A DNA stretch of 64,000 nt from Hongsoonwoonella zoysiae (GTDB lineage: Bacteria; Pseudomonadota; Alphaproteobacteria; Rhizobiales; Stappiaceae): positions 1,865,736-1,929,735 of the forward strand of contig NZ_JABRXF010000001.1 of the NCBI RefSeq assembly GCF_013266695.1, written 5' to 3'. The position numbers and the translations under genes are program-made. Below are positions 17 through 22,483 of this stretch, one piece after another. How positions within the stretch are numbered: position 1 is the stretch's first letter; each line of letters starts with the position of its first letter. Below the pieces are notes generated by a model. It ran no database searches, had not been told where the DNA came from, and saw only the letters and a program-made list of their open reading frames with translations.

Positions 17-184
17 TTAGCGCAGCTTGCGGATCGCCAGTAAGGAAATGATCACGGCCACGCTCGAAATCGCCAGCAGGATGTCGTGCGAATGGAAATG
101 GACCCCGCTCCCGTGCGCGTGGGAAACCGCCGGCGACAGCAGGAAGGGGATTGAGCAGGCCAGTACCTTCAGGGTTGTGGTCAT
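17..184 (-). CDS. Small His-rich single-span membrane protein
   Basis: A 55-residue protein. Residues 5-20 are a hydrophobic signal-like segment ending in SHA; residues 22-33 carry five histidines (H22, H24, H29, H31, H33); residues 35-51 form a second hydrophobic helix followed by a basic tail (RKLR). I chose the ATG at 184 because the strand reads AAAGGACAG just upstream; a longer in-frame start at 205 would swallow that ribosome site. It lies 42 bases downstream of the guanidine-hydrolase-like gene and in the same direction, so the two are probably co-transcribed. The histidine cluster at the membrane face suggests metal (nickel?) binding, and the AHG..H.H pattern recalls the N-terminus of HupE/UreJ proteins, but this is only an inference. 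No family is recognised with confidence. Confidence 0.6.
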   Translation of the reverse strand: MTTTLKVLACSIPFLLSPAVSHAHGSGVHFHSHDILLAISSVAVIISLLAIRKLR

Positions 185-226
185 GAACTGTCCTTTCTGT
201 TTCATCGTTCTGTTGCGGGTTTTCGC

Positions 227-1420
227 TCAGGAGGACGTTGTGCCGCGGTGTCCGAGCTTGCCCGCCGCGACCATGGAGCTGGTGACGTCCAGGATGACCC
301 GCGTGGCAAGCTGCGAGGTGTTGTCGTTGACATCGTAAGGCGGGGACACTTCGACCACTTCCATGCCGCACAAGCCTTCGCGGGCGATGATCTTGATCAT
401 CTCGAAGGCTTCCCGCGGCATGAATCCACCGGGTTCTGGAGTGCCCGTTCCCGGCGCGAACGCCGGATCGATGGAATCGATATCGAACGAAAGATAGACC
501 GCCTTGGCGTCTTTCCACGCCAGCTCAAGGGCGATTTCGGCCGTCTTGGCCGCGCCCATGCTTTCCACGTCATGCATGGTCAGCACGCTGGAGCCGCGCT
601 CGTGGGCGACCTGCGATCCGGGGCGGGAGCCGTACCACCCGCCGATGCCGATCTGGACGAGGTTCTTCGGCGGGCAATTGGCGAGGCCGACGTCGTGCAT
701 GTGGCTGTGATCGTGATGCTGGCCGGGCCCATGCGTGTGTGCCCGCGCGTCCGGATGGTTGTTGGACGTCCAGTACCAGGGGGTTGTGTGCATCCTTTCG
801 TCCATGTCCATCGCCTGCATGTCGATGTGCCGGTCGAAATGGATGATGCCCACGTTCCCGTCGATGTGGGGGGCGATACCGCGTACGTTCGGGTAGCCGA
901 GCGAGTGGTCGCCGCCGCAGATGATCGGAAATGCGCCTGACGTGTAGATATGCGAGATGGCTTTCGAGACCTGGTCGAAGGTCTTTTCTATATTGCCGGG
1001 AATGACGAAGACGTCGCCCGCGTCGCAAAGGTCCAGTTCCTCGGTAAGGTCGACGCCCTGATCCACGGAATATCCGTCGTAAAGCGCGGATATGCGCCGC
1101 ACGGCCTGCGGGCCGAAGCGCGTGCCCGGCCGATAGGTCGTGCCCGTATCGAAGGGCACGCCCACGAAGGCGGCCTCGAAGTTCCCCACCTTCGAGATAT
1201 CTTCGCAGTAGGGCGCGCGCATGAATGTGTTGATCCCGGCGAAAGCGGGCTGGCTGCCGCGCGCGAAGAGCGAGATCGAGCGGTCGTTGATGGAATCGGC
1301 CGCCTCCAGCCCGTACTTGAGCTGATGCTCGATTTCTTCTTGCTGTTTCGTCTTCGGCAGGCGTGAAATTTCCCGCAATTTTCTTGTGCCGTCGAATTCG
1401 CGTGTGGAATCGTCAGTCAT
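227..1420 (-). CDS. Ureohydrolase (arginase/agmatinase superfamily), guanidine-hydrolase (GdmH)-like
   Basis: A 397-residue binuclear-metal ureohydrolase. All metal-ligand motifs are visible: GGDHS (about residues 169-173), FDRHID (about 195-200, the family's DAHxD) and SFDIDSIDP followed by GTGTPEPGG. It is longer than classical agmatinases (about 300-320 residues) because of an N-terminal extension of roughly 80 residues and an insertion after the DRHID motif. The DRHID and DERMHTTPW features are what I remember of the nickel-dependent guanidine hydrolase subgroup (Synechocystis Sll1077 type), so guanidine to urea plus ammonia is the favoured reaction; agmatinase or guanidinobutyrase remain possible. 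The insertion (residues 228-242) has seven histidines in fifteen positions. The ATG at 1420 is preferred; a GTG at 1429 is in frame. It is transcribed divergently from the NMG dehydrogenase operon. Confidence 0.8.
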   Translation of the reverse strand: MTDDSTREFDGTRKLREISRLPKTKQQEEIEHQLKYGLEAADSINDRSISLFARGSQPAFAGINTFMRAPYCEDISKVGNFEAAFVGVPFDTGTTYRPGTRFGPQAVRRISALYDGYSVDQGVDLTEELDLCDAGDVFVIPGNIEKTFDQVSKAISHIYTSGAFPIICGGDHSLGYPNVRGIAPHIDGNVGIIHFDRHIDMQAMDMDERMHTTPWYWTSNNHPDARAHTHGPGQHHDHSHMHDVGLANCPPKNLVQIGIGGWYGSRPGSQVAHERGSSVLTMHDVESMGAAKTAEIALELAWKDAKAVYLSFDIDSIDPAFAPGTGTPEPGGFMPREAFEMIKIIAREGLCGMEVVEVSPPYDVNDNTSQLATRVILDVTSSMVAAGKLGHRGTTSS

Positions 1421-1677: not shown

Positions 1678-2928
1678 GTGGCTTACTCGGCATTTCGGAT
1701 CGCGCTGGAGGCTATAAGGGGCCACGCCGGTTGGTCCCCCGTTTGGCGCGACGCAACACCCCGGGCGGAATACGACGTCATCGTCATCGGCGGGGGAGGG
1801 CACGGCCTCGCCACGGCCTATTATCTTGCGAAGGCGTTCGGCGTCGCGCGCGTCGCGGTTCTGGAAAAGGGGTGGCTCGGCGGCGGCAATGTCGGGCGCA
1901 ATACCACCATCATTCGCTCCAACTACCTCCTCGACGCAAATGAGCCGTTTTACGAATTTTCCCTGAAGCTGTGGGAAGGGTTGTCGCGAGAGCTTAACTA
2001 CAACGCGATGGTCAGCCAGCGCGGTGTCCTGAACCTTTATCACTCGGATGCGCAGCGCGATGCCTTCGTGCGTCGCGGTAACGCCATGTTGCTGCATGGG
2101 GCGGACGCAGAGTTGCTGGACACGGAAGGCGTGCGCGAACTGGCGCCGTTTCTGAACTTTGAAAACGCGCGATTTCCCGTGAAGGGAGGTTTGCTGCAGC
2201 GGCGTGGCGGCACCGCGCGTCATGACGCGGTTGCCTGGGGTTATGCGCGCGGCGCAAGCCGGCTTGGTATCGATATCGTCCAGAATTGCGAGGTCACCGG
2301 ATTCCGCTTGAAGGAGGGACGCTGCGTGGGGGTGGAGACCACGCGCGGGCCGATCGCCGCGCGTACGGTGGGCTGCGCGGTGGCGGGTTCCTCGAGCCGT
2401 CTGATGGGCCTGGCGGGCCTGCGGTTGCCGTTGGAAAGCCACGTGCTCCAGGCGTTCGTGACCGAAGGTTTGAAACCGTGCGTTCCGGGCGTCATCACCT
2501 TCGGCGCCGGGCATTTCTACGTCAGCCAGTCCGACAAGGGCGGGCTCGTCTTCGGCGGGGATATCGACGGTTACAATTCCTATGCGCAGCGCGGCAACCT
2601 GCCGGTGGTCGAGGATGTCTGCGAAGGCGGAATGGCGCTGATGCCGATGATCGGCCGCGCCAAGGTCCTTCGCATGTGGGGCGGCAACGTCGACATGTCG
2701 ATGGACGGTTCGCCCATTATCGACCGTACGCCCGTGGACGGTCTCTTTCTCAACGGCGGCTGGTGTTACGGCGGCTTCAAGGCCACGCCGGCGAGCGGCT
2801 GGTGTTTCGCGCATCTTCTCGCGACCGGCGAGCCGCATCCGTTAGCCGCGCGCTACAGGCTGGGCCGTTTCCTCACCGGCGACCTGATCGACGAAAAAGG
2901 CATGGGCGCCCAGCCCAACCTTCATTGA
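1678..2928 (+). CDS. mgdA: N-methylglutamate dehydrogenase subunit A (sarcosine oxidase beta-like flavoprotein)
   Basis: A 416-residue FAD-dependent oxidoreductase of the heterotetrameric sarcosine oxidase beta (SoxB) type. The Rossmann motif VIVIGGGGHGLATAYYL lies at about residues 34-50 with the acidic end of the second strand at VLEKG. The segment GGTARHDAVAWG places H182 where characterised SoxB proteins attach FMN covalently (inference from the family). It starts with GTG after GGAAAGGAGC. It heads a four-gene operon mgdA-B-C-D that matches sarcosine oxidase in subunit order (B-D-A-G), but the mgsABC-gmaS genes nearby make N-methylglutamate the likelier substrate: oxidation to glutamate with transfer of the methyl carbon to tetrahydrofolate in the cytoplasm. 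Confidence 0.88.
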   Translation: MAYSAFRIALEAIRGHAGWSPVWRDATPRAEYDVIVIGGGGHGLATAYYLAKAFGVARVAVLEKGWLGGGNVGRNTTIIRSNYLLDANEPFYEFSLKLWEGLSRELNYNAMVSQRGVLNLYHSDAQRDAFVRRGNAMLLHGADAELLDTEGVRELAPFLNFENARFPVKGGLLQRRGGTARHDAVAWGYARGASRLGIDIVQNCEVTGFRLKEGRCVGVETTRGPIAARTVGCAVAGSSSRLMGLAGLRLPLESHVLQAFVTEGLKPCVPGVITFGAGHFYVSQSDKGGLVFGGDIDGYNSYAQRGNLPVVEDVCEGGMALMPMIGRAKVLRMWGGNVDMSMDGSPIIDRTPVDGLFLNGGWCYGGFKATPASGWCFAHLLATGEPHPLAARYRLGRFLTGDLIDEKGMGAQPNLH

Positions 2929-2940
2929 GGCCTGATCCGC

Positions 2941-3228
2941 ATGATTATCGAACATCCGCTTCTGGGACCGCGCGACGCGCAGGAATTCGTCTACTTGGGG
3001 GACGCCTCCCTGATCGACCGCCCGGATGGCATGGCGGAGGATTCAGTCGAGTGTTTTCACGACTACCTCTACCTCCGCTCCAATCCGGCGGGCCTTCACC
3101 GCGAGCTGTGGTTTCATGAAGGCGGCGACCGGTCGTGGCTCGTCGTCACGCGCGACACCGTGACCCATGAAATCGTGAAGGTCGAACTCGCGGCCGATGT
3201 CGCCCGGCAAAGGGGGCGTTGTCGATGA
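2941..3228 (+). CDS. mgdB: N-methylglutamate dehydrogenase subunit B (sarcosine oxidase delta-like)
   Basis: A 95-residue small subunit of the SoxD type; EFVYLGDASLIDRP and YLYLRSNPAGLHRELWFH are typical. Characterised delta subunits bind structural zinc with a CPYCG motif near the N-terminus and a HxxxC pair near residues 59-63. Here the N-terminal motif reads HPLLG (residues 5-9) and the second site reads H59-E-G-G-D63, so the cysteines are replaced and only H59 survives. The only cysteines are C38 and C94, not at those sites. It sits 12 bases after mgdA, and its stop overlaps the mgdC start (ATGA at 3225-3228), implying coupled translation. Confidence 0.85.
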   Translation: MIIEHPLLGPRDAQEFVYLGDASLIDRPDGMAEDSVECFHDYLYLRSNPAGLHRELWFHEGGDRSWLVVTRDTVTHEIVKVELAADVARQRGRCR

Positions 3229-6182
3229 GCGCCCCGAACCGCCTTTCGCACCGCCTTCCGGGCGGCCTGATCGACAGGAAGCGCACGCTCTCCTTCCGCT
3301 TCGATGGCCGCGAATATCATGGTCATCCCGGCGATACGCTCGCCTCCGCGCTTCTCGCCGGCGGCCGGATGCTGATGGGCCGTTCGTTCAAGTATCATCG
3401 CCCGCGCGGTCCCTTGACCGCCGGCTCGGAAGAGCCCAACGCGCTGGTGGAACTGGGCGGCGGCGCCTGTCGGGAGCCGAACGCCCGGGCGACGACCACC
3501 GAGCTTTTCGACGGACTCGAGGCCCGGAGCCAGAACCGCTGGCCGTCACTGTCGTTCGACGTTCTGGCCGTGAACGATCTTCTCGCGCCCTTCCTGACTG
3601 CGGGCTTCTACTACAAGACGTTCATGTGGCCGCGCTCGTTCTGGGACAAGGTCTACGAACCGGCGATCCGCCGTGCCGCCGGCCTCGGGCGTCTGTCGGG
3701 CGCTGCCGATCCGGACGTCTATGACAAGGGCTTCCTGCATTGCGACCTTCTCGTGGTGGGCGGCGGTCCCGCCGGACTGACGGCGGCCCTTGCCGCCGCG
3801 CGCGCCGGCGCAAGGGTGATCCTCGCGGAGGAGGATTTCCGGTTCGGCGGCCGTCTCAACTGCGATGCCGGCCTGTTTCTCGGCGCCGATCAGCAGGACT
3901 GGATTTCGGCTTGCGTGGAAGAGCTTTCCTCGCTCGAAAACGTTCGCCTGATGCCACGCACGATGGTGTTCGGCGCCTTCGATCACGGCATCTTCGGCGC
4001 GCTGGAGAATAATCCCCCGCAAGCGGCATCGGGGCCCAGGCAGGTGCTGTGGCGTATCTACGCCAGGCGTACCGTGCTTGCCGCGGGCGCCGTCGAGCGG
4101 CCGATCGCATTCGCCGACAACGATCGCCCGGGCATTATGCTTGCCGGGGCCGTGCGCGCCTATGCTAACCGCTGGGCCGTGGCCGTGGGCAGGCAGGTTG
4201 TCGTCTTCACCAACAATGACGACGGCTACAGGACGGCGGCGGACCTGATGGCGAAAGGCGTCGAGGTTCCGGCGATTGTCGATACGCGCTCCGATGCCGC
4301 CGTCGATGTCGGCGTGCCTGTTTTCGCGGGCGCCGCCGTCGTCGGCACGTCGGGCCGCTTGCGTTTGAGCGGAGTGAAACTGCGCCTTTCTTCGGGCGAG
4401 GAGCGTTCGTTGAAATGCGACGCGCTCGCGCTCGGCGGTGGCTGGAATCCGAACCTGCATCTCACCTGCCATCAGGGGCATCGCCCCGTCTGGCGGGAGG
4501 ATATCGCGGCCTTTGTGCCCGGCAAGGCCGGTCCTCCCGGCCTTCGCGCCGCCGGGGCGGCCTGCGGCGCGTTCTCCACGGCGAATGCGCTGGAAGGCGG
4601 CCGCGATGCCGCCAACGACGCGCTGGAGGACCTGGGTTTTCGCCGGCAGGACGTGAAGCTGCCGGAGGCGGAGGGCCGGACGCCGTCCATTGTCGCTTTC
4701 TGGCATGTGCGTTCGAAGGGCGGGCGCGCCTGGGTCGATTTCCAGAACGACGTGACGGTGAAAGATGTGGAGCTTGCGCATCGCGAGAACTTCCGCTCCG
4801 TGGAGCACCTGAAGCGCTACACCACGCTTGGCATGGCGCCCGACCAGGGCAAGACCGCGAATGTGATCGGACTTGCGGTGATGGCGGAACTGAGCGGGCG
4901 TACCATCCCCGAAACGGGCACGACGACCTTTCGGCCCCCCTATGCGCCGGTTTCGGTCGCCGCATTCGCCGGCCGCTCGACGGGGGAGGATTTCCGCCCG
5001 CGCCGTCTGACGCCGTCGCACGACTGGGCGGCGGAGCAGGGCGCGCATTTCGTCGAGGCGGGCTTGTGGCTGCGCGCGCAATGGTTTCCGAGGCCGGGCG
5101 AAAGCCACTGGCGCCAGACGGTGGACCGCGAGGTTCTGGCGACGCGCGGCTCCGTCGGGATTTGCGACGTGAGCACGCTCGGCAAGATCGACGTTCAGGG
5201 GACGGACGCCGCAGCCTTTCTTAACCGGGTCTACTGCAACGGCTTCGCGAAACTTCCCGTTGGCCGGGTCCGCTACGGGCTGATGCTGCGTGAAGACGGC
5301 ATGGCGATGGATGACGGCACCACCGCGCGGCTGGCGGAGGACCATTTCGTCACCACCACGACGACGGCGAACGCGGTCGCCGTCTTCCGCCATATGGAGT
5401 TCTGCCGTCAAAGCCTGTGGCCGGGGCTTGACGTGCAACTGGTTTCGACGACGGAAGCCTGGGCGCAATTCGCGGTCGCGGGCCCGAATTCCCGGCGCGT
5501 TCTTCAAAGGGTCGTCGATCCTGAGTTCGATATTTCCAATGAGGCCTTTCCCTTCATGGCCTGCGGCGAAATCACGGTCTGCGGCGGCCTCAGGGCGCGC
5601 CTTTTCCGGATTTCCTTTTCCGGCGAGCTTGCCTACGAGATCGCAGTGCCCACCCGCTATGGCGATGGCTTGATCAGGCGCCTCATGGAGGCGGGCAGGG
5701 ATTTCGACATCACACCCTACGGAACCGAGGCGCTGGGCGTCATGCGCGTGGAAAAGGGCCATGCCGCCGGCGGTGAATTGAACGGAACGGTCACGGCCCG
5801 CAACCTGGGCATGGAGCGGATGGTTTCCGCCAAGAAGGACAGCATCGGCGCGCCTCTTTCGCGGCGCGAAAGCCTGTCTGGCGAGGATGTCCTGAAGCTC
5901 GTGGGCTTTTGTCCGCTCGACCCGGCGCAGCCTCTTGTGGCGGGGTCGCATCTGCTGCCCGAAGGCGCTGCGGCCCAGGCGTCCAACGATCAGGGCTATC
6001 TCACCTCGGCGGTCTATTCGCCGACGCTCGCCACACCGATCGCGCTCGGGTTCCTGAAGCGCGGGGATGCGCGTTTGGGCGAGGTCGTAGATGTCGCCAA
6101 TCCGCTCATGGGAACGCGCGTCAGGGCGCGCGTCGTCTCACCGCATTTCTTCGATCCGGAAGGAGGGCGCCTGCGTGTCTGA
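3225..6182 (+). CDS. mgdC: N-methylglutamate dehydrogenase subunit C (sarcosine oxidase alpha-like)
   Basis: A 985-residue large subunit. Domain order as read: an N-terminal ferredoxin-like fold (about 1-100, with the GDTLASALLAGG segment), a pyridine-nucleotide binding Rossmann region (LLVVGGGPAGLTAAL near residue 170), and a C-terminal aminomethyltransferase (GcvT)-like folate-binding domain (about 600-960, with FSGELAYEIAVP and YGTEALGVMRVEKG). The last is where the oxidised methyl group meets tetrahydrofolate. Start at 3225 overlaps the mgdB stop and has AAAGGGGGCG upstream; a TTG six bases earlier is in frame. The length matches SoxA/MgdC proteins of about 970-1000 residues. Confidence 0.88.
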   Translation: MSAPNRLSHRLPGGLIDRKRTLSFRFDGREYHGHPGDTLASALLAGGRMLMGRSFKYHRPRGPLTAGSEEPNALVELGGGACREPNARATTTELFDGLEARSQNRWPSLSFDVLAVNDLLAPFLTAGFYYKTFMWPRSFWDKVYEPAIRRAAGLGRLSGAADPDVYDKGFLHCDLLVVGGGPAGLTAALAAARAGARVILAEEDFRFGGRLNCDAGLFLGADQQDWISACVEELSSLENVRLMPRTMVFGAFDHGIFGALENNPPQAASGPRQVLWRIYARRTVLAAGAVERPIAFADNDRPGIMLAGAVRAYANRWAVAVGRQVVVFTNNDDGYRTAADLMAKGVEVPAIVDTRSDAAVDVGVPVFAGAAVVGTSGRLRLSGVKLRLSSGEERSLKCDALALGGGWNPNLHLTCHQGHRPVWREDIAAFVPGKAGPPGLRAAGAACGAFSTANALEGGRDAANDALEDLGFRRQDVKLPEAEGRTPSIVAFWHVRSKGGRAWVDFQNDVTVKDVELAHRENFRSVEHLKRYTTLGMAPDQGKTANVIGLAVMAELSGRTIPETGTTTFRPPYAPVSVAAFAGRSTGEDFRPRRLTPSHDWAAEQGAHFVEAGLWLRAQWFPRPGESHWRQTVDREVLATRGSVGICDVSTLGKIDVQGTDAAAFLNRVYCNGFAKLPVGRVRYGLMLREDGMAMDDGTTARLAEDHFVTTTTTANAVAVFRHMEFCRQSLWPGLDVQLVSTTEAWAQFAVAGPNSRRVLQRVVDPEFDISNEAFPFMACGEITVCGGLRARLFRISFSGELAYEIAVPTRYGDGLIRRLMEAGRDFDITPYGTEALGVMRVEKGHAAGGELNGTVTARNLGMERMVSAKKDSIGAPLSRRESLSGEDVLKLVGFCPLDPAQPLVAGSHLLPEGAAAQASNDQGYLTSAVYSPTLATPIALGFLKRGDARLGEVVDVANPLMGTRVRARVVSPHFFDPEGGRLRV

Positions 6183-6816
6183 TGATCTTCTCAAACCACG
6201 TTTCCCGCTCGGCGGGGCCAGTCCCTTTCGATCGGAATATGAAGGCTTTTCCATTTCGGAATCGATGGCGAATTCGTTCGTCTGGCTCGCCTGCCGCTTG
6301 AACCGGCAGGCGGATTTCGAGCGGATGGCGCGCGAGGTTTTCGGCTTTGCCATGCCGGGCCCGGGCGGGCTTGCCCGGCGTAGCGCCTACTCCACGTTCT
6401 GGACCGGGCCGGGCCAATGGATGGTCGTGGCGCCTTTCTCCTGCCATCGCGATCTCGAAACGCTGATGAAGGAAGGCTTCGGCCCCTCGGCGTCCGTGAC
6501 GGACCAGACGGATGCCTGGCTCAGACTGGATCTGGAAGGGGTCGCCTGCCATACCGTGCTTGAAAGGCTGGTCGCGCTGCCGCTTCATACGGTGGGTGAG
6601 GGATCGGCGCACCGCGTGAGCGTCCATCACACCGGGTGCTTTCTCGGCTGCCTGGGCATGGCGGACCGTTATTTTCTGCTTGCGCCGCGGTCTTCCGCCC
6701 GCTCGGTGTTCCATGCCTTGCGCCAGGCGGCGGAAAGCGTGCTCACGCCATTGGCAGCGCCCCGGCATCCTCCGGTGTCAGGCCTGTCCGGTGGCGGCGC
6801 TCCGCACCGGGGCTGA
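6175..6816 (+). CDS. mgdD: N-methylglutamate dehydrogenase subunit D (sarcosine oxidase gamma-like)
   Basis: A 213-residue SoxG-type subunit; recognisable segments are WTGPGQWMVV and VTDQTDAWLRLDLEG. The GTG start at 6175 lies inside the end of mgdC (8-base overlap) behind GGAAGGAGGG. Its last 24 codons, rich in Pro and Gly (APRHPPVSGLSGGG), run through the 3' end of the convergent AraC-type gene, giving a 74-bp antisense overlap (6743-6816). It completes the mgdABCD operon. Confidence 0.85.
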   Translation: MSDDLLKPRFPLGGASPFRSEYEGFSISESMANSFVWLACRLNRQADFERMAREVFGFAMPGPGGLARRSAYSTFWTGPGQWMVVAPFSCHRDLETLMKEGFGPSASVTDQTDAWLRLDLEGVACHTVLERLVALPLHTVGEGSAHRVSVHHTGCFLGCLGMADRYFLLAPRSSARSVFHALRQAAESVLTPLAAPRHPPVSGLSGGGAPHRG

Positions 6817-8592: not shown

Positions 8593-8771
8593 GTCGTTAT
8601 CCGCATCCGTTTAGCTGCTTTTTGAAATGCTTCTCCCCTTGGCTCCGGCTTTCGGGCGGCCTCAAATCTGCAAGAAAATTATCACCGTAGGAATAATTTA
8701 TTCATATGAGTTGCGTCCGTCGCGAATTGGAGTTACGCTTTCAGCGAAGATTGCTTCCTGGAGCGTATGCC

Positions 8772-9683
8772 ATGTGCGGAATTGTCGGTCTTTTCCTGAA
8801 AGACAGATCCCTTCAACCGGAGCTCGGCAGTCTCCTTTCGGACATGCTGGTGACGATGACCGAGCGCGGGCCCGACAGCGCGGGGATCGCGATATACGGC
8901 GCTGATAGCGGGGCGGAAGGCCGGCTGACTATTCAGGCGGACGATCGCGGTACGGATTTCGACGCCGTTGCGGCAAGGCTCGGCGAAATCGCGCAGGCCC
9001 GCGTTACGGCGCACCGGCGCGACAGCCATGCGGTGCTCGTGTGCCCGCCGGCCGCGGTTGACGCGGTGAGGGAAGCCCTTGAACGAACCTTTCCCGAAAT
9101 CACGTTGATGAGCTTCGGCTCGAATATCGAAATCTACAAGGAAACCGGCCTTCCGAGCGATGTCGTCGACCGTTTCGGAATTCGCTCCATGGGCGGAACC
9201 CATGGTATCGGCCATACGCGCATGGCGACGGAATCCGCGGTCACGACCTGCGGAGCGCATCCGTTCTCCACGGGCGCGGACGAATGCCTGGTGCACAACG
9301 GCTCGCTTTCCAATCACAACCGCCTGCGCTCGGGGCTGGAGCGGGAGGGTATCCGCTTCGCCACGGATAACGACAGCGAAGTGGCGGCGGCCTATCTTTC
9401 GGGCAAGATGCGCGACGGAGCGGATCTGGGCGAGGCTTTGAACGCCGCCCTTTCCGATCTCGATGGCTTTTTCACCTTCGTCGTCGGCACGCGCAGCGGT
9501 TTCGGCGTGGTGCGTGACCCGATCGCCTGCAAGCCGGCGGTCATGGCGGAGAACGATCGATATGTCGCTTTCGGTTCGGAATATCGCGCCCTGGCCGGTC
9601 TGCCGGGCATAGAGGATGCGCGCGTGTGGGAGCCGGAACCCGCCACGGTCTATTTCTGGAGCCATCGCCATGCGGCGGCTTGA
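8772..9683 (+). CDS. mgsA: N-methylglutamate synthase subunit A (class II glutamine amidotransferase)
   Basis: A 303-residue Ntn-type glutamine amidotransferase. MCGIVGLF at the N-terminus gives Cys2, the catalytic nucleophile exposed after Met removal, which fixes the start at 8772 rather than the longer in-frame start at 8706. Further hallmarks are TERGPDSAGIAIYG (about 35-48), GIGHTRMATES, HPFSTG and CLVHNGSLSNHN. In the NMG pathway this subunit works with MgsB and MgsC, which together correspond to the domains of glutamate synthase, to transfer methylamine from gamma-glutamylmethylamide and form N-methylglutamate. A 14-base overlap with mgsB implies coupling. Confidence 0.87.
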   Translation: MCGIVGLFLKDRSLQPELGSLLSDMLVTMTERGPDSAGIAIYGADSGAEGRLTIQADDRGTDFDAVAARLGEIAQARVTAHRRDSHAVLVCPPAAVDAVREALERTFPEITLMSFGSNIEIYKETGLPSDVVDRFGIRSMGGTHGIGHTRMATESAVTTCGAHPFSTGADECLVHNGSLSNHNRLRSGLEREGIRFATDNDSEVAAAYLSGKMRDGADLGEALNAALSDLDGFFTFVVGTRSGFGVVRDPIACKPAVMAENDRYVAFGSEYRALAGLPGIEDARVWEPEPATVYFWSHRHAAA

Positions 9684-10347
9684 CCTTGCCGAAACGCCGC
9701 TGCGCGAGGTGAACGCGGCCCTCCAGGTGCCTGTTTCGGGCGAAACGTCCTGGGAGATCGTCAATCCTCGCGGCGCGCACGCTCTGGCCGTCGGTCTGGA
9801 TGCGCCGATCGACGTCGGCATTCGCGGTTCGGCCGGCTATTACTGCGCGGGCATGAACAAGCAGGCGACGGTGCATGTGCATGGTTCCGTCGGGCCGGGT
9901 GTGGCGGAAAACATGATGTCCGGCACCGTGATCGTCGAAGGCGACGCGAGCCAGTACGCGGGCGCGACGGGCCATGGCGGCCTTCTGGCGATAAAAGGCA
10001 ATGCCTCCTCGCGCTGCGGGGTGTCGATGAAGGGCATCGACATCGTTGTTCACGGCGATATCGGCCACAGCTCCGCCTTCATGGCGCAGACCGGCAACCT
10101 CGTCGTGCTTGGCGACGCCGGGGATGCGCTGGGCGATTCCATTTACGAGGCGCGGCTTTTCGTGCGCGGCAGCGTACGCAGCCTCGGCGCGGACTGCGTG
10201 CAAAAGGAGATGCGGCCGGAACATCTGGAACTGCTCGCCCGCCTTCTCGATCGCGCCGGCGCCGACGCGCGGCCGGAGGAGTTCAAGCGCTACGGTTCGG
10301 CGCGCAGGCTTTACAATTTCGACGTTGACAACGCCACGTCCTACTGA
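9670..10347 (+). CDS. mgsB: N-methylglutamate synthase subunit B (GXGXG domain protein)
   Basis: A 225-residue right-handed beta-helix protein matching the C-terminal GXGXG domain of glutamate synthase: repeats such as VHVHGSVGPGVAENMMSG, VEGDASQYAGATGHGG and IKGNASSRCGVSMKG. It starts inside the end of mgsA (overlap 9670-9683) and ends eight bases before mgsC. It is the structural subunit joining the amidotransferase and FMN subunits. Confidence 0.86.
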   Translation: MRRLDLAETPLREVNAALQVPVSGETSWEIVNPRGAHALAVGLDAPIDVGIRGSAGYYCAGMNKQATVHVHGSVGPGVAENMMSGTVIVEGDASQYAGATGHGGLLAIKGNASSRCGVSMKGIDIVVHGDIGHSSAFMAQTGNLVVLGDAGDALGDSIYEARLFVRGSVRSLGADCVQKEMRPEHLELLARLLDRAGADARPEEFKRYGSARRLYNFDVDNATSY

Positions 10348-10355
10348 GGGTCCTG

Positions 10356-11696
10356 ATGGCCGAAGACACGAAAAACCAACCGCCGCGCACTCCGCCGATT
10401 CAATCGGCGACTTTCACGAACGCGGTGAATGCGGAAATCCGCCGGGCTGCCGCCACGGGCATTTATGACATTCGCGGCGGCGGGGCCAAGCGCGCGGTGC
10501 CGCATTTCGACGATCTTCTCTTCCTGGGCGCGTCGATCTCGCGCTATCCGCTGGAAGGGTACCGGGAACGGTGCGGTACCGATGTCGTTCTCGGCGGCCG
10601 CTTCGCGAAGAAGCCCGTGAAGCTCGATATCCCGGTCACCATCGCGGGCATGAGCTTCGGCGCGCTTTCGGGCCCCGCCAAGGAGGCTCTGGGCAGGGGC
10701 GCGAGCGCCGTCGGCACCTCCACGACGACGGGCGATGGCGGCATGACGGAGGAAGAGCGCGGACATTCGAAGACGCTCGTCTACCAGTATCTGCCGTCGC
10801 GCTATGGCATGAACCCGGATGACCTGCGCCGTGCCGACGCGATTGAGGTCGTGGTCGGGCAGGGGGCGAAGCCCGGCGGCGGGGGCATGCTGCTCGGCCA
10901 AAAGATTTCGGATCGGGTCGCCGAAATGCGCGATCTCCCTCAAGGGGTGGACCAGCGGTCGGCCTGCCGCCATCCGGACTGGACCGGGCCGGACGACCTG
11001 GAAATCAAGATCCTCGAGCTGCGGGAAATCACGGGCTGGGAAAAGCCGATCTACGTGAAGGTCGGCGGCGCGCGGCCTTATTACGATACCGCGCTTGCCG
11101 CCAAGGCGGGTGCAGATGTCGTCGTGCTCGACGGCATGCAGGGCGGCACTGCTGCCACGCAGGACGTCTTCATCGAGCATGTGGGCCTTCCCACGCTTGC
11201 CTGCATTCGTCCCGCCGTCGACGCGCTGCAGGACATGCGCCTTCACCGGAAGGTTCAGCTTGTCGTTTCCGGCGGCATCCGCAATGGCGCGGATGTGGCC
11301 AAGGCGCTCGCGCTCGGCGCCGATGCGGTGTCGATCGGCACGGCGGCGCTGATCGCGCTCGGCGACAACGATCCCCGCTGGGAAGAGGAGTACCGCAAGC
11401 TCGGCACCACCGCCGGCGCCTATGACGACTGGCATGAGGGCCGGGATCCTGCCGGGATCACCACGCAGGATCCGGAGCTTGCAGCTCGCTTCGATCCCGA
11501 GCTCGGCGGCAGGCGGCTTGCCAACTACCTGCGCGTTCTGACGCTGGAGGCGCAGACCATCGCGCGCGCCTGCGGCAAGAGCCACGTGCGCAACCTCGAA
11601 CCGGAGGACCTGTGCGCTCTGACAGTCGAAGCCGCCGCGATGGCGCGGGTTCCGCTTGCCGGAACAAGCTGGGTGCCTGGGCAGACGATGCTTTGA
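10356..11696 (+). CDS. mgsC: N-methylglutamate synthase subunit C (FMN glutamate-synthase-like)
   Basis: A 446-residue protein of the glutamate synthase central/FMN-binding family. Motifs include TIAGMSFGALSGPAKEALG, GQGAKPGGGGMLLGQKIS, YVKVGGARPYYDTALAAKAG, VVLDGMQGGTAATQ and SGGIRNGADVAKALALGAD (phosphate-binding loop of the FMN barrel). It lacks the CxxxxxCxxxxC cluster-binding pattern of classic GltB as far as I can see. With MgsA and MgsB it would form N-methylglutamate from gamma-glutamylmethylamide or methylamine. It ends 35 bases before gmaS. Confidence 0.87.
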   Translation: MAEDTKNQPPRTPPIQSATFTNAVNAEIRRAAATGIYDIRGGGAKRAVPHFDDLLFLGASISRYPLEGYRERCGTDVVLGGRFAKKPVKLDIPVTIAGMSFGALSGPAKEALGRGASAVGTSTTTGDGGMTEEERGHSKTLVYQYLPSRYGMNPDDLRRADAIEVVVGQGAKPGGGGMLLGQKISDRVAEMRDLPQGVDQRSACRHPDWTGPDDLEIKILELREITGWEKPIYVKVGGARPYYDTALAAKAGADVVVLDGMQGGTAATQDVFIEHVGLPTLACIRPAVDALQDMRLHRKVQLVVSGGIRNGADVAKALALGADAVSIGTAALIALGDNDPRWEEEYRKLGTTAGAYDDWHEGRDPAGITTQDPELAARFDPELGGRRLANYLRVLTLEAQTIARACGKSHVRNLEPEDLCALTVEAAAMARVPLAGTSWVPGQTML

Positions 11697-11731: not shown

Positions 11732-13039
11732 ATGAACGAGCAACTGTCCGATTTTGCGAAAGAAAGAGGCGTTGAGTATTTCCTGATTTCCTATACCGAT
11801 CTGTTCGGTGCGCAGCGGGCGAAGCTCGTCCCCGCCGCCGCGATCGACGACATACAGGAAGGCGGTGCCGGTTTCGCCGGTTTCGCGAGCTGGCTCGATA
11901 TGACGCCCGCCGATCCGGATCTCCTGGCGATGCCGGATTCAGCCTCCGCGATACAGCTTCCGTGGAAGCCGGAGGTTGCCTGGGTCGCGGCCGATTGCAC
12001 GATGAACGAAAGGCTCGTCGAACAGGCCCCGCGCAACGTGCTCAAGGCTCTTGTCGCGCGTGCGGGTGAACGCGGCATGCGCGTCAAGACCGGGGTCGAG
12101 CCGGAGTTCTTTCTTCTGAGCGCCGATGGCAGCGAGATTTCGGACAGCCACGATACGGCGGAAAAGCCCTGTTACGACCAGCAGGCGCTGATGCGCCGCT
12201 ACGACGTAATCGCGCAGATCTGCACCTATATGCAGGATCTCGGCTGGAAGCCCTATCAGAACGACCATGAGGACGCGAACGGCCAGTTCGAGATGAACTG
12301 GGAATTCGACGACGCCCTGGCGACCGCCGACAAGCATTCCTTCTTCAAGTTCATGGTCAAGTCCGTCGCCGAGATGCACGGCCTGCGGGCAACCTTCATG
12401 CCCAAGCCGATCGCAGGGCTTACCGGCAGCGGCTGCCATGCGCACATCTCCGTGTGGGACGGTGCGGGTGAGGTCAATCGCTTCGCCTCCCGTGAGGATG
12501 AACTCGGCCTTTCCGAAGAGGGGCGTCACTTCCTGGGCGGTATCGTCCGGCATGCGACCGCCTATACGGCCATCACCAACCCGACAGTGAATTCCTACAA
12601 GCGCATCAACGCGCCGCGTACGGCATCCGGCGCCACTTGGGCGCCCAACAGCGTCACCTGGTCGGGCAACAATCGCACGCACATGGTGCGCGTACCGGGC
12701 CCCGGGCGGATCGAGCTTCGCCTGGCCGACGGCGCGGCCAATCCCTACCTGCTTCAGGCGGTCATCATCGCCGCCGGTCTGGACGGGATCGACACCAGGG
12801 CCGATCCGGGCAAGCGTCAAGACATCAACATGTATACCGAGGGTCATCTGGTCGAGGATGCGCCGCGTCTGCCGCTGAACCTTCTCGACGCCCTGCGCGA
12901 GCTGGATCGCAATGGCGCGCTGAAAGCCGCTCTGGGCGAGGAGTTCTGCGAGGCCTACCTGAAGCTGAAGAAGGACGAGTGGAACGCCTTCGTCTCCCAC
13001 TTCTCCCGGTGGGAAAAGGAAAACGCCATCGATATCTGA
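11732..13039 (+). CDS. gmaS: Gamma-glutamylmethylamide synthetase (glutamine synthetase-like)
   Basis: A 435-residue glutamine synthetase-fold enzyme. Visible motifs: GVEPEFFLLS (metal-binding Glu), NDHEDANGQFEMNW, the ATP-site segment KPIAGLTGSGCHAHIS, and NSYKRINAPRTASGATWAPN followed by RVPGPGRIELRLADG. It resembles the GlnT/GlnA-III-like branch that includes GmaS. It would ligate methylamine to glutamate with ATP, making gamma-glutamylmethylamide, the first step of the NMG pathway. GAGGAGGGGACAG precedes the ATG. It closes the mgsABC-gmaS operon and a terminator follows. Confidence 0.87.
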   Translation: MNEQLSDFAKERGVEYFLISYTDLFGAQRAKLVPAAAIDDIQEGGAGFAGFASWLDMTPADPDLLAMPDSASAIQLPWKPEVAWVAADCTMNERLVEQAPRNVLKALVARAGERGMRVKTGVEPEFFLLSADGSEISDSHDTAEKPCYDQQALMRRYDVIAQICTYMQDLGWKPYQNDHEDANGQFEMNWEFDDALATADKHSFFKFMVKSVAEMHGLRATFMPKPIAGLTGSGCHAHISVWDGAGEVNRFASREDELGLSEEGRHFLGGIVRHATAYTAITNPTVNSYKRINAPRTASGATWAPNSVTWSGNNRTHMVRVPGPGRIELRLADGAANPYLLQAVIIAAGLDGIDTRADPGKRQDINMYTEGHLVEDAPRLPLNLLDALRELDRNGALKAALGEEFCEAYLKLKKDEWNAFVSHFSRWEKENAIDI

Positions 13040-13108
13040 CCGTCGGGGGGCCGGCCTCAGACGTTCTCCCTACCGCGGCAGCCCCACCCTCCATGCCGCG
13101 GGACTTGC

Positions 13109-13135
13109 AAGGGCGGCCTCTGGTCGCCCTTTTTT
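13109..13135 (+). terminator. Rho-independent terminator after gmaS
   Basis: Inverted repeat AAGGGCG (13109-13115) and CGCCCTT (13125-13131), extended inward by three pairs, followed by a run of T. Confidence 0.8.
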
Positions 13136-13236
13136 CCTTGGTGCGTGACGTTTGAACGCCGTTCCCGAGGCTCTGGCCATTGTGTTGCCTGTCAGGCTAT
13201 AGTCCATTCACATGCATGGAATGATGGTCGGGTGCG

Positions 13237-13767
13237 ATGACGGACATGGGGCGGATGAGCGGGCCGAAACTGAAGTCCGGCGGCGCTGCGGCGCATGAGG
13301 CGGACGTCGGCAGCCAGCCGGCGACGCTCGGCGAAATCGGGCTGGACCGTTTCGCGCCTTATCTCATGAATCGGGTGATGGGCCGCTGGAATGCCGATAT
13401 CCAGAAGGCGCTGCGTGAATTCGGGCTGACGACCGCGCAGATGCGAGCGCTTGCCGTGCTTTCGGTCATTCCGGGCCTCACGATCATGGAGTTGTCCGTC
13501 TATACGGTCACCGAGCAGTCGACCATGAGCCGCACGCTCGACGGTCTGGAATCTCAAGGCTTCGTACGGCGCGTTGCGCGTGCCGACGACGCCCGCGCGC
13601 GGGAGATTTTCCTGACCGACGCGGGGGCCGCAGCCTTCGCTCGTGTCTGGCCGTTGATGCGCGATGCTTACGAGAAAATGCTTGCCGGCATCGGCGAGGA
13701 AGAGCGCGAGGCGTTTTTGGGCACCTTGCGCAGGATCGTCCGCAACGTCCGGCGGCATAATCTTTGA
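13237..13767 (+). CDS. MarR-family transcriptional regulator
   Basis: A 176-residue winged-helix regulator. The DNA-binding core reads LRALAVLS/ITIMELSVYTVTEQSTMSRT (recognition helix) then the wing with DARAREIFLTDAG. N- and C-terminal helices for dimerisation surround it. It lies 100 bases upstream of iorA in the same direction and is the probable controller of the following six genes. An ATGCAT core occurs both upstream of this gene (13212-13217) and in front of iorA (13818-13823), a candidate shared operator. Confidence 0.88.
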   Translation: MTDMGRMSGPKLKSGGAAAHEADVGSQPATLGEIGLDRFAPYLMNRVMGRWNADIQKALREFGLTTAQMRALAVLSVIPGLTIMELSVYTVTEQSTMSRTLDGLESQGFVRRVARADDARAREIFLTDAGAAAFARVWPLMRDAYEKMLAGIGEEEREAFLGTLRRIVRNVRRHNL

Positions 13768-13786
13768 CGGGGCTTGATTATCGCGA

Positions 13787-13825
13787 TTGACCGTACGGTT
13801 GGTTTAAGCTTAAATATATGCATAT
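13787..13825 (+). promoter_or_regulatory. iorA promoter with three stacked palindromes
   Basis: A -35-like TTGACC (13787-13792) and -10-like TTAAAT (13810-13815) are separated by 17 bases. Three perfect palindromes overlay them: ACCGTACGGT (13790-13799), TTTAAGCTTAAA (13803-13814) and ATATGCATAT (13816-13825). A MarR dimer binding any of these would block the promoter. Confidence 0.5.
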
Positions 13826-13869
13826 GGATATAATCGAGCCTTGGCTCCAATTGACGTGAGGAGAGGCAA

Positions 13870-16029
13870 TTGGCCGAACGGTCCTTCGCGAGGGAAGTGG
13901 AGCAATTGCGCGTCGGCGCCGGCGAGGAGTTCCACGGCGAAGGCATCCTCGCGATCACAAAGGCGCTGCTCCAATGCGGCGTCGGTTACGTCGGCGGCTA
14001 CCAGGGCGCGCCGATCTCGCATCTGATGGATGTGTTGGCGGACGCAGAGGAACTCCTCGGCGAATATGGCGTTCGCTTCGAGGCGAGCGCTTCGGAAGCG
14101 ACCGCCGCTGCAACCCTTGCCGCTTCCGTGCATTACCCGATCCGGGGCGCCGTTACCTTCAAGTCGACGGTCGGCCTGAACGTCGCCTCCGATGCGCTAG
14201 CCAATCTCGCCTCCGGCGGGGTGACGGGCGGCGCCCTTCTCATCATCGGCGAGGATTACGGCGAAGGCTCCTCCATCATGCAGGAGCGCAGTCATGCCTT
14301 CGCCATGAAGTCGCAGGTCTGGCTTTTGGACCCGCGCCCCAATCTCCCGTCCATCGTCAAGGCGGTGGAGGATGGGTTTGCGCTCAGCGAAGCGTCCAAC
14401 ACGCCGGTCATGCTCCAGGTGCGCATTCGTGCGTGCCATGTCACCGGTTCCTTCATTGCGAAGGACAACCAGCGCCCGCCGATGACGGTGGCGGAAGCGC
14501 AGAATGCGCCCCGGCGCGACACGCAGCGCGTCGTCCTCCCGCCCGCGTCTTACCAGCATGAGCAGGAAAAGATCGCGAAGCGCTGGCCGGCGGCGGAAGC
14601 CTTCATCCGCGAGCACGGGCTGAACGAACGTTTCGGGCCCGATGAGGCGCCCGTCGGCATCGTCCTTCAGGGCGGCATGTACAACGGCGTCATTCGCGCA
14701 CTGCAACGCCTCGGCCTGGCCGATATCCATGGGCAGACCAGCGTTCCCCTTTATGTGCTCAACGTCACCTATCCGCTGATCGAGAGCGAGTTCCTTGAAT
14801 TCTGCGAGGGCAAGCGTTCGGTTCTCGTCGTGGAAGAAGGCCAGCCGGATCATATCGCGCAAAGCTTCGGCGCGATGCTCCACAAGGCCGGCTCGGATGT
14901 GAAGCTTACGGGCAAGGATTACCTGCCGATGGCGGGCGAATATACCGGCCGCGTCATGCTGGAGGGGATTGGCAAGTTCCTGCGCGCCCACGGGGCCGAA
15001 CTTCTTCCCGATGCCGCGCGTGCGCCCAACGAGCCGCAACCGTCAAAGCCGGACGCGCGGGATCTTTCAGGCGTCGTGCCGCCGCGCCCGCCGGGCTTTT
15101 GCACGGGCTGTCCCGAACGGCCGATCTTCGCTGCCACCAAGCTTGTCGAGCAGGAACTGGGCTCCCATCATATCGCGGGCGACATCGGCTGCCATCTCTT
15201 TGCCTCGCTGCCGCCGTTCGAGATCGGTTCGTCGACCATGGGTTACGGTCTCGGTCCGGCCTCCGCTTCCGCCTTCAACGCGCCGGGCGCGAAACGCACG
15301 ATCTCCTTCATCGGCGACGGCGGCTTCTGGCACAACGGCTTGAATTCCTCCATCGGCAACGCGGTCTACAACAAGGCCGATGGCGTCATCGTCATAGTTG
15401 ACAACAATTATTCGGCCGCCACCGGCGGACAGGACATCCTGTCGACGCGCGCGCCGAACGCAAGCCGCTCTACGGGCCATTCCATCGTCGATGCGGTAAA
15501 GGGGCTTGGCGTTCAATGGGTGCGCCATATCGACCGCACCTATGACGTGCCGAAAATGCGCGACACATTGCGCGAGGCGCTGACGACCGACGTTACGGGT
15601 CCGAAAGTCATCGTCGCCTCGTCGGAATGCATGTTGAACCGGCAGCGGCGCGAAAAGCCGCTTGAGACGAAGGCGATCAGGTCGGGCGCACGTGTCGTCA
15701 AGCCGCGCTTCGGCGTGGATGAGGACGTATGCACTGGCGATCATGCCTGCATGCGGCTTTCCGGCTGCCCCTCGCTCACGGTGAAGCATCTCGACGATCC
15801 GCTGAGGGACGATCCTGTCGCCCATATCGACGAAAGCTGCGTGGGCTGCGGCAATTGCGGCGAGGTGGCGGATGCCGCCGTGCTCTGCCCCTCTTTCTAC
15901 CGTGCCGATGTCGTTCACAACCCGCGCCCGTTCGAGCGTTGGCTGTCGCGCGTTCGTGCGCGCCTCATCGCCCGGCTTCAGGCGCGCCGGGCAAAGCGCC
16001 GCCTCATGTTTGATGAGGTGTCGGCATGA
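13870..16029 (+). CDS. iorA: Indolepyruvate:ferredoxin oxidoreductase, alpha-type subunit (TPP and Fe-S)
   Basis: A 719-residue 2-oxoacid:ferredoxin oxidoreductase subunit. The N-terminal pyrimidine-binding half (GGYQGAPISHLMDVL; FKSTVGLNVASDALANL) is followed by the TPP-pyrophosphate motif FIGDGGFWHNGLNSSIGN...DNNYSAATGG (about residues 475-520). The C-terminal part has iron-sulfur cysteines: CTGDHACMRLSGC and CVGCGNC with a further C nine residues later. It would oxidatively decarboxylate an aryl-pyruvate to an aryl-acetyl-CoA. The start is TTG at 13870, chosen for GAGGAGAGG just upstream. The stop overlaps iorB (ATGA). Confidence 0.85.
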   Translation: MAERSFAREVEQLRVGAGEEFHGEGILAITKALLQCGVGYVGGYQGAPISHLMDVLADAEELLGEYGVRFEASASEATAAATLAASVHYPIRGAVTFKSTVGLNVASDALANLASGGVTGGALLIIGEDYGEGSSIMQERSHAFAMKSQVWLLDPRPNLPSIVKAVEDGFALSEASNTPVMLQVRIRACHVTGSFIAKDNQRPPMTVAEAQNAPRRDTQRVVLPPASYQHEQEKIAKRWPAAEAFIREHGLNERFGPDEAPVGIVLQGGMYNGVIRALQRLGLADIHGQTSVPLYVLNVTYPLIESEFLEFCEGKRSVLVVEEGQPDHIAQSFGAMLHKAGSDVKLTGKDYLPMAGEYTGRVMLEGIGKFLRAHGAELLPDAARAPNEPQPSKPDARDLSGVVPPRPPGFCTGCPERPIFAATKLVEQELGSHHIAGDIGCHLFASLPPFEIGSSTMGYGLGPASASAFNAPGAKRTISFIGDGGFWHNGLNSSIGNAVYNKADGVIVIVDNNYSAATGGQDILSTRAPNASRSTGHSIVDAVKGLGVQWVRHIDRTYDVPKMRDTLREALTTDVTGPKVIVASSECMLNRQRREKPLETKAIRSGARVVKPRFGVDEDVCTGDHACMRLSGCPSLTVKHLDDPLRDDPVAHIDESCVGCGNCGEVADAAVLCPSFYRADVVHNPRPFERWLSRVRARLIARLQARRAKRRLMFDEVSA

Positions 16030-21652: not shown

Positions 21653-22483
21653 CTATGGGGTCAGTATGCAGGTGTCGGCCTTCCTGTGATATGGCCGATT
21701 GCATTTCCAGTCGGTACCGAGAAAATCGATATGCGCATTCGCCGGTACGGCAATTTCTCTGCAAGTGCCCTGATGCTCGCGATAACCATGCTCGCACTCC
21801 CAGCCCTGGCCGATACCCGACCGCGAAAGATAACCGTTCTGCGGCACCGATATGGCTTCGCAATTGCCCTCGACTGCACGGTATCCGCGCTCGCAAGTCC
21901 AGCCCGACCCGAAGCTGTCATCCGAAAGATATGCGTGCTCGGGCACCTTGATTGGTTCGCACCCGTCGCCGACAGGACGATACCCTCTGTTGCAGTCCCA
22001 TCCGTCGCCGTAGGAGCGGGTGTTCAGGTAGGCGTTTGCAGGAATTTCGATCGCGACGCAGCCACTGTTCGTAGCCTGAAAACCCCTGCGGCATTTCCAG
22101 CCAGGGCCGTGATAGCTATCTTCCAGAAATGCGTTTTCCGGAACATCTATGGTCGCGCAGGCCGCGCCCTCCTGCCGAAAGCCGAAATTGCACTCCCAGC
22201 CACCGTCGTAGCGGTTACCTGTCAGATAAGCGTTTTCGGGCGCCGTTATCGCAGCGCATATTCCGTTGTACTCGATGTATCCATCATTGCACTCCCAACC
22301 TTGTCCATAATCTTTGGTATGTGCGTTCTGAGGTATTTCAGCCGCGAACGCGCCCGATAAGGTGGAAATACATAACGCAGATACCAAGGCTGAAATAATC
22401 CATATAGATCTTGTAAAATTAAGATTTATAATTTTTTTTGAAAAAAGCGTGATTTCAACGAGTATTTTTCTCAAGTTATTCAT
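21653..22483 (-). CDS. Secreted protein of seven tandem Cys-containing repeats
   Basis: A 276-residue protein with an N-terminal signal/anchor (hydrophobic about 27-46, cleavage near AFAAE). From residue 50 to the end it is seven imperfect repeats of about 33 residues. The consensus is I-x-V-P-x-N-A-x-L, then G-x-G-W-x-C-x-x-G-Y, then G-x-x-C-x-x-I. Each repeat has exactly two cysteines, presumably one disulfide per repeat in the periplasm or outside. AAGGGAAG precedes the ATG. The first 60 codons and upstream region are much more AT-rich than neighbours. I do not recognise a named family; function unknown. It is convergent with the cyclase gene. Confidence 0.8.
   Translation of the reverse strand: MNNLRKILVEITLFSKKIINLNFTRSIWIISALVSALCISTLSGAFAAEIPQNAHTKDYGQGWECNDGYIEYNGICAAITAPENAYLTGNRYDGGWECNFGFRQEGAACATIDVPENAFLEDSYHGPGWKCRRGFQATNSGCVAIEIPANAYLNTRSYGDGWDCNRGYRPVGDGCEPIKVPEHAYLSDDSFGSGWTCERGYRAVEGNCEAISVPQNGYLSRSGIGQGWECEHGYREHQGTCREIAVPANAHIDFLGTDWKCNRPYHRKADTCILTP
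21656..22336 (-). repeat. Seven degenerate in-frame coding repeats of about 99 bp
   Basis: The protein-level repeats (starts IPQNAH, ITAPENAY, IDVPENAF, IEIPANAY, IKVPEHAY, ISVPQNGY, IAVPANAH) translate to direct DNA repeats of about 99 bp. They have diverged in sequence, so the repeat is old rather than a recent slippage expansion. Confidence 0.8.

Follow-up and report, generated by a model that had tools for sequence, protein, structure and literature searches.

A guanidinase-related ureohydrolase clade with a conserved histidine-rich insert, encoded beside methylamine genes: a candidate N-alkylguanidine hydrolase

The window, which is the whole stretch of 64 000 nucleotides analysed from Hongsoonwoonella zoysiae, contains a ureohydrolase gene with an unusual histidine-rich insert. 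The gene is divergent from a group of methylamine genes and forms part of an operon-like series that also includes two SDRs, a PuuE-like deacetylase and a PotD-type importer. The features of the locus are as follows.

17..205, minus strand: small protein with a signal peptide, the His cluster HAHGSGVHFHSHD and one membrane helix, just downstream of the ureohydrolase
227..1420, minus strand: ureohydrolase gene, 397 aa, with an alternative GTG start at 1429
440..442, minus strand: Thr327, at the position of the guanidine-specificity Trp (Synechocystis W305, N. inopinata W313)
674..718, minus strand: conserved core H235-x2-H238-x-H240-M-H242-D-[VY]-G-L-x-N-C249, named positions invariant in 38/38 loop proteins
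698..772, minus strand: His-rich insert, residues 217-241, WTSNNHPDARAHTHGPGQHHDHSHM
821..835, minus strand: DRHID metal motif, residues 196-200
1678..6816, plus strand: soxBDAG-type four-gene set (TIGR01373/01374/01372/01375), read as N-methylglutamate dehydrogenase mgdABCD, divergent from the ureohydrolase
8706..11696, plus strand: mgsABC-type glutamate-synthase-like genes (N-methylglutamate synthase by context)
11732..13039, plus strand: gmaS, gamma-glutamylmethylamide synthetase (methylamine-glutamate ligase), TIGR03105 656.7 bits

The ureohydrolase matched PF00491 at 258.7 bits (cut-off 22), which places it in the arginase/agmatinase superfamily, and equivalents of all the superfamily metal ligands (H182, D207, H209, D211, D299 and D301) were present. 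GdmH was nearest in both sequence and fold; the best PDB matches were 7esr (450 bits) and 9fek (442 bits), and identity in the fold comparison was 52-55% to the Synechocystis (Sll1077, 7esr/7oi1) and N. inopinata (9fek) guanidinases, which have the fold, all the metal ligands and the T105, H222 and E344 equivalents in common with the window protein. The AlphaFold2 model outside the loop also fitted the guanidinases best. These comparisons place the protein in the guanidinase branch; the preliminary assignment to guanidine hydrolase is right as to branch but not as to likely substrate.

The insert comprises 25 residues with seven His, between HTTPW[FY] and HDVGL. The preliminary description had reported a 15-residue insertion with seven His directly after DRHID. 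A 15-residue run with seven His was indeed present (residues 228-242, HTHGPGQHHDHSHMH) and would be expected ∼3e-5 times per protein at 2.9% His, the frequency in this protein outside the run; however, the insert itself is longer than was described and begins 17 residues C-terminal of DRHID. A scan of species genomes yielded 80 relatives, giving with the window protein 81 sequences, of which 38 have the loop and 43 are loopless. Identity to the window protein was 68-86% for the other 37 loop proteins and about 55-61% for the 43 loopless proteins. Across the loop proteins the insert ranged from 17 to 31 aa with four to nine His, and W217, T218, H235, H238, H240, M241, H242, D243, G245, L246, N248 and C249 were invariant in 38/38. 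Within the insert only H235, H238 and H240 are invariant His, followed after it by the equally invariant H242, D243 and C249; the other insert His of the window protein are lineage-specific and fall in the variable linker part. The codons of the conserved His showed synonymous variation (CAC/CAT). The insert is therefore genuine coding sequence, as the His are conserved in 38 proteins while their codons vary synonymously, and an origin by chance or frameshift was ruled out.

The 43 closest loopless relatives lack the insert, as do the solved guanidinases 7esr/7oi1 and 9fek; the alignment of these structures to the query is interrupted at precisely this point. The active-site His of ERMH precedes the insert by six residues in the primary sequence, and Asp243 and Val/Tyr244 of the loop proteins stand where the loopless proteins have an invariant A-T. 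Both AlphaFold2 models had low confidence in the loop, and the loop-to-metal distance was taken from neither. Judged by its sequence, the core, which is strictly invariant, resembles a defined site more than a loose buffer.

In a quick tree of the 38 + 43 proteins the loop proteins formed one clade with an SH-aLRT of 99, part of which may come from the insert columns, as these were included in the alignment. The nearest loopless proteins were seven sequences, mainly from Actinomycetota, that are sister to the loop clade (L044-L049, L057). Within the family of the window genome the ureohydrolase gene was found in 1/87 genomes, the window genome only, and its two congeners lacked both the ureohydrolase and gmaS, which is consistent with joint acquisition of the two. 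Plasmid-borne spread of the loop enzyme was not backed, since all 11 plasmid matches had less than 60% identity. tRNA genes lie directly beside the loop enzyme genes of L009 (9867-9938), L010 (9867-9938) and L020 (9780-9867 and 11504-11577), and the gene of L029 stands between two identical transposase-like gene pairs (4413-6700 and 12589-14876); these tRNA neighbours and transposase-like flanks are marks of horizontal transfer.

All 81 proteins kept the six metal ligands together with residues equivalent to T105, H222 and E344 of the N. inopinata enzyme. The specificity Trp position was occupied by Thr/Ser in 38/38 loop proteins, while the loopless proteins had Trp in 36/43 and Thr/Ser in 7/43. 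These seven are the sister group of the loop clade, and the loop is thus not required for loss of the Trp. The window protein keeps the Thr of the GdmH specificity pair (T97/T105) and has Thr in place of the Trp (W305/W313). This Trp, the fourth guanidinase residue, marks guanidine specificity, and the Trp-type N. inopinata enzyme gave no detectable urea from methylguanidine (PMC11410670); of the sequence features, loss of the Trp therefore gives the strongest hint that the substrate is larger. A guanidine-I riboswitch was found near the gene at 8/11 Trp-type loci. No guanidine riboswitch was found at the gene in the 26 loop loci searched, including L005/L006 (window side); a single borderline Guanidine-II match lay ∼3 kb from the L034 gene, the second copy in Hyphomicrobium facile (26 loop versus 11 Trp-type loci, Fisher 4e-6, with loci treated as independent of shared ancestry). 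The motifs had initially been read as those of a nickel guanidine hydrolase, and this stands as regards the branch, the ligands and the closest structures, but the key Trp is Thr and the guanidine riboswitch is missing.

In the soxBDAG-type set, soxB and soxA scored above the TIGR cut-offs and soxD and soxG below, and the identity of the set as mgdABCD is given by context; a GbdR-like regulator adjoins it. The order soxBDAG, mgsABC-like genes, gmaS is the layout of the N-methylglutamate pathway of methylamine. The window GmaS matched the crystallised Rhodovulum enzyme RhGmaS (7cql) over its whole length at 616 bits, with DHEDANGQFE conserved. Ethylamine is also accepted by GmaS (PMC7948447). 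At a threshold of E ≤ 1e-100, gmaS was present in 32/35 genomes with a loop enzyme, against 10/35 with a Trp-type enzyme and 68/385 across the class (Fisher 9e-8). After proteins at least 90% identical were merged the counts were 15/16 loop versus 2/10 Trp-type (p 2e-4), and the signal was weaker at the coarser 85% merging (5/6 versus 0/5). The association is correlational, and the loop genomes have ancestry and habitat in common.

A GmaS-like gene lay no more than 10 kb from the ureohydrolase gene at 11/38 loop loci versus 0/36 Trp-type loci; the nearest solved protein to the copy in L037 is a glutamate-methylamine ligase. Glutamate-synthase-like genes were found nearby only in the window, L029, L008 and L043. 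L025 has HypB and, right after the loop enzyme, two tandem genes with matches to subunits A and B of metformin hydrolase (575 and 508 bits), and in L027 a metformin/dimethylguanidine-hydrolase-type pair stands right before it. The neighbour lists were made by automatic codon-based gene picking, with no curated annotation, and for L027 stop-to-stop ORFs were used. Downstream of the enzyme, both the window genome and L007 have importer, SDR and PuuE-like genes; the row in the window does not obviously meet a need of a methylguanidine pathway. Molybdenum-hydroxylase-like genes, PuuE-like deacetylases and a guanine-deaminase-like amidohydrolase were seen near loop enzymes at the following loci.

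L009, 15608-19441 and 8111-9007; L025, 7211-8179; L007, 7208-8704; L005, 16628-17578: molybdenum-hydroxylase-like, PuuE-like and guanine-deaminase-like neighbours

Such neighbours prompt the speculative idea that methyl- and dimethylguanidine might derive from methylated guanine bases.

About half of the loop loci had nickel uptake genes (NicO, HupE or HupE-like mini-proteins) directly behind the enzyme gene. By reading of the neighbour lists, a NicO-type transporter took this place at six loci, HupE at eight, with a ninth HupE after importer genes, and a small protein with signal peptide, His and membrane helix at five, window included. This gene company suggests Ni for the loop enzyme. The small protein at 17..205 had no Pfam match but is probably a HupE-like nickel mini-protein; its counterpart in L013 resembles the start of HupE and matched HupE_UreJ at E 1.5e-4, just under the cut-off. 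The tiny secreted or membrane proteins of this kind, 53-75 aa long and with His immediately behind the signal peptide (window 17-205 minus; L007, L013, L016 and L027 at +15, +30, +42 and +23 behind the gene), are possibly mini-HupE nickel proteins; similar ones were also seen at Trp-type loci, e.g. L056 at +472.

No HypA, and no HypB above the cut-off, was found in the whole window genome; the single sub-threshold HypB match adjoins urease and is probably UreG. The preliminary description had pointed to the left of the window as a place for hypA/hypB-like genes, and none was seen there in 20 kb. HypA and HypB were both present in 8/18 loop genomes searched and HypA was missing from 3/8 loopless genomes searched, so that absence of HypA/HypB does not follow the distribution of the loop. 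A general replacement of HypA/B by the loop was not supported, nearly half of the loop genomes searched keeping both.

At Trp-type alphaproteobacterial loci a very His-rich protein (∼10-30 His) is encoded directly after the enzyme, by motif at 23/36 Trp-type and 0/38 loop loci; it was found in 1/18 loop genomes searched. The family has about 120-190 aa, with a His-rich start and a conserved domain, gave no Pfam match, and is encoded a few bases downstream of most guanidinase genes of Alphaproteobacteria.

L051 11135, L056 11139, L060, L061, L067, L071, L075, L076, L078 and L080-L086: His-rich partner downstream of the Trp-type guanidinase

This family is a candidate new nickel chaperone for guanidinase. 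The distribution of loop and partner fits an internal versus an external His device, but each trait is essentially one evolutionary event, and their exclusion is therefore weak evidence.

From sequence and gene context together we infer that the protein depends on nickel and represents a distinct clade of ureohydrolases related to the guanidinases, acting on an N-alkylguanidine, most likely methylguanidine, which would yield methylamine and urea (probability roughly 0.55). A di-nickel site would hydrolyse methylguanidine with water, the change of the pocket Trp to Thr/Ser giving room for the N-methyl group. The methylamine would enter GmaS and the N-methylglutamate pathway encoded alongside, and the urea would pass to the urease that is present in the window genome. 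The invariant H-x2-H-x-H-M-H-D...C of the loop is probably a binding site for a metal ion, nickel being the most likely, near the mouth of the active site, and may either pass nickel on or keep the mouth in shape.

The role of the loop was weighed between these last two functions. A nickel buffer or self-loading device, as first suggested for this protein, is one possibility. Here the His would bind Ni(II) and hand it to the di-metal site, as HypA/HypB-type proteins do for Synechocystis GdmH. The adjoining Ni transporters and the lack of HypA and of clear HypB in the window genome, which sets it apart from GdmH, agree with this, as do the separate His-rich protein of Trp-type loci and the poor loading of the N. 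inopinata guanidinase, which is without known chaperones (PMC11410670). In its dense His cluster and nickel gene company the enzyme resembles the His-rich nickel chaperones of the HypB/UreE type, but its cluster lies inside an enzyme loop, has a short invariant core rather than a variable tail, and comes with no GTPase or chaperone domain; strict invariance also departs from the variable His tails of Ni storage proteins. With the HypA/HypB distribution and the weakness of the loop/partner exclusion counted against it as well, a pure nickel loader is a rather doubtful reading. It is preferred less than a metal-binding or lid element at the active-site mouth (HxxHxHxHD...C, with or without a structural metal) that sets the substrate together with the Trp-to-Thr/Ser change, for which the chances seem about even. 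The position beside ERMH, which contributes an active-site His in guanidinases, the replacement of A-T and the combination of invariant core and variable linker argue for such a lid; the existence of loopless Thr/Ser-type relatives and the low-confidence models weigh against it.

As regards the substrate, an ordinary guanidine hydrolase with a decorative insert would agree with the closest solved relatives being guanidinases and with NitT/TauT-type importers and Ni transporters near both loop and Trp-type genes, but is unlikely given the loss of the Trp in every loop protein, the riboswitch result and the strong gmaS company. Hydrolysis of creatine or guanidinoacetate, with sarcosine or glycine feeding the adjacent soxBDAG as a true sarcosine oxidase, draws on the match of the four genes to sarcosine oxidase models and on the GbdR-like regulator. 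It appears very improbable, since the set is followed by mgsABC and gmaS in the arrangement of N-methylglutamate dehydrogenase clusters (as read by context) and loop genomes co-occur with gmaS. The relatives are labelled 'agmatinase family protein' in public records and superfamily membership would allow a Mn agmatinase, but the protein scored 165.3 bits against the TIGR01230 agmatinase equivalog, under the 174.3 cut-off, and is far closer to guanidinases, leaving this alternative scarcely credible.

The proposed methylguanidine hydrolase would stand between enzymes already described. Methylguanidine is a decay product of creatinine. We know of no gene or sequence for methylguanidine amidinohydrolase activity, and a literature search for the gene of this enzyme (EC 3.5.3.16) found none. 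Chromosomal DmgH-type enzymes hydrolyse dimethylguanidine and metformin hydrolases do not take methylguanidine (PMC11399263); the Trp-type N. inopinata guanidinase gave no detectable urea from it, and methylguanidine thus falls in the gap between two known specificities. The DmgH/MefH enzymes (8ryi, 8snf, 8x3g) resemble the loop enzyme in their ureohydrolase fold, in Ni handling genes nearby and in the pairs of their type that adjoin it in L025 and L027. They need two unlike subunits, whereas the loop enzyme is encoded by one gene, not an alpha/beta gene pair, and carries every metal ligand on the same chain; its identity to MefH-type subunits is 25-27%. Methylguanidine amidinohydrolase (EC number from PMC11764249) was described in Alcaligenes sp. 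N-42 (Nakajima et al. 1980, as cited in PMC11970497); its reaction, known there as an activity, is the same as that proposed here from genomic context.

That the clade is the missing EC 3.5.3.16, a Ni enzyme whose own loading loop replaces HypA/HypB-type chaperones, is in its entirety an unlikely proposition. A clade with methylguanidine hydrolase activity would supply the gene for a reaction measured in 1980 and complete a set in which guanidine, methylguanidine and dimethylguanidine are each hydrolysed by a Ni enzyme clade of their own; in marine and soil bacteria it would also tie methylguanidine to the assimilation of methylamine. The window genome, which lacks HypA and a clear HypB and encodes a probable Ni enzyme, is also a clean case that suits testing of nickel loading by an internal loop.

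Elsewhere in the window, a secreted protein (21653-22483, minus strand) contains about five Cys-rich repeats (GxGWECxxGYxxxxxxCxxIxVPxNAYL).
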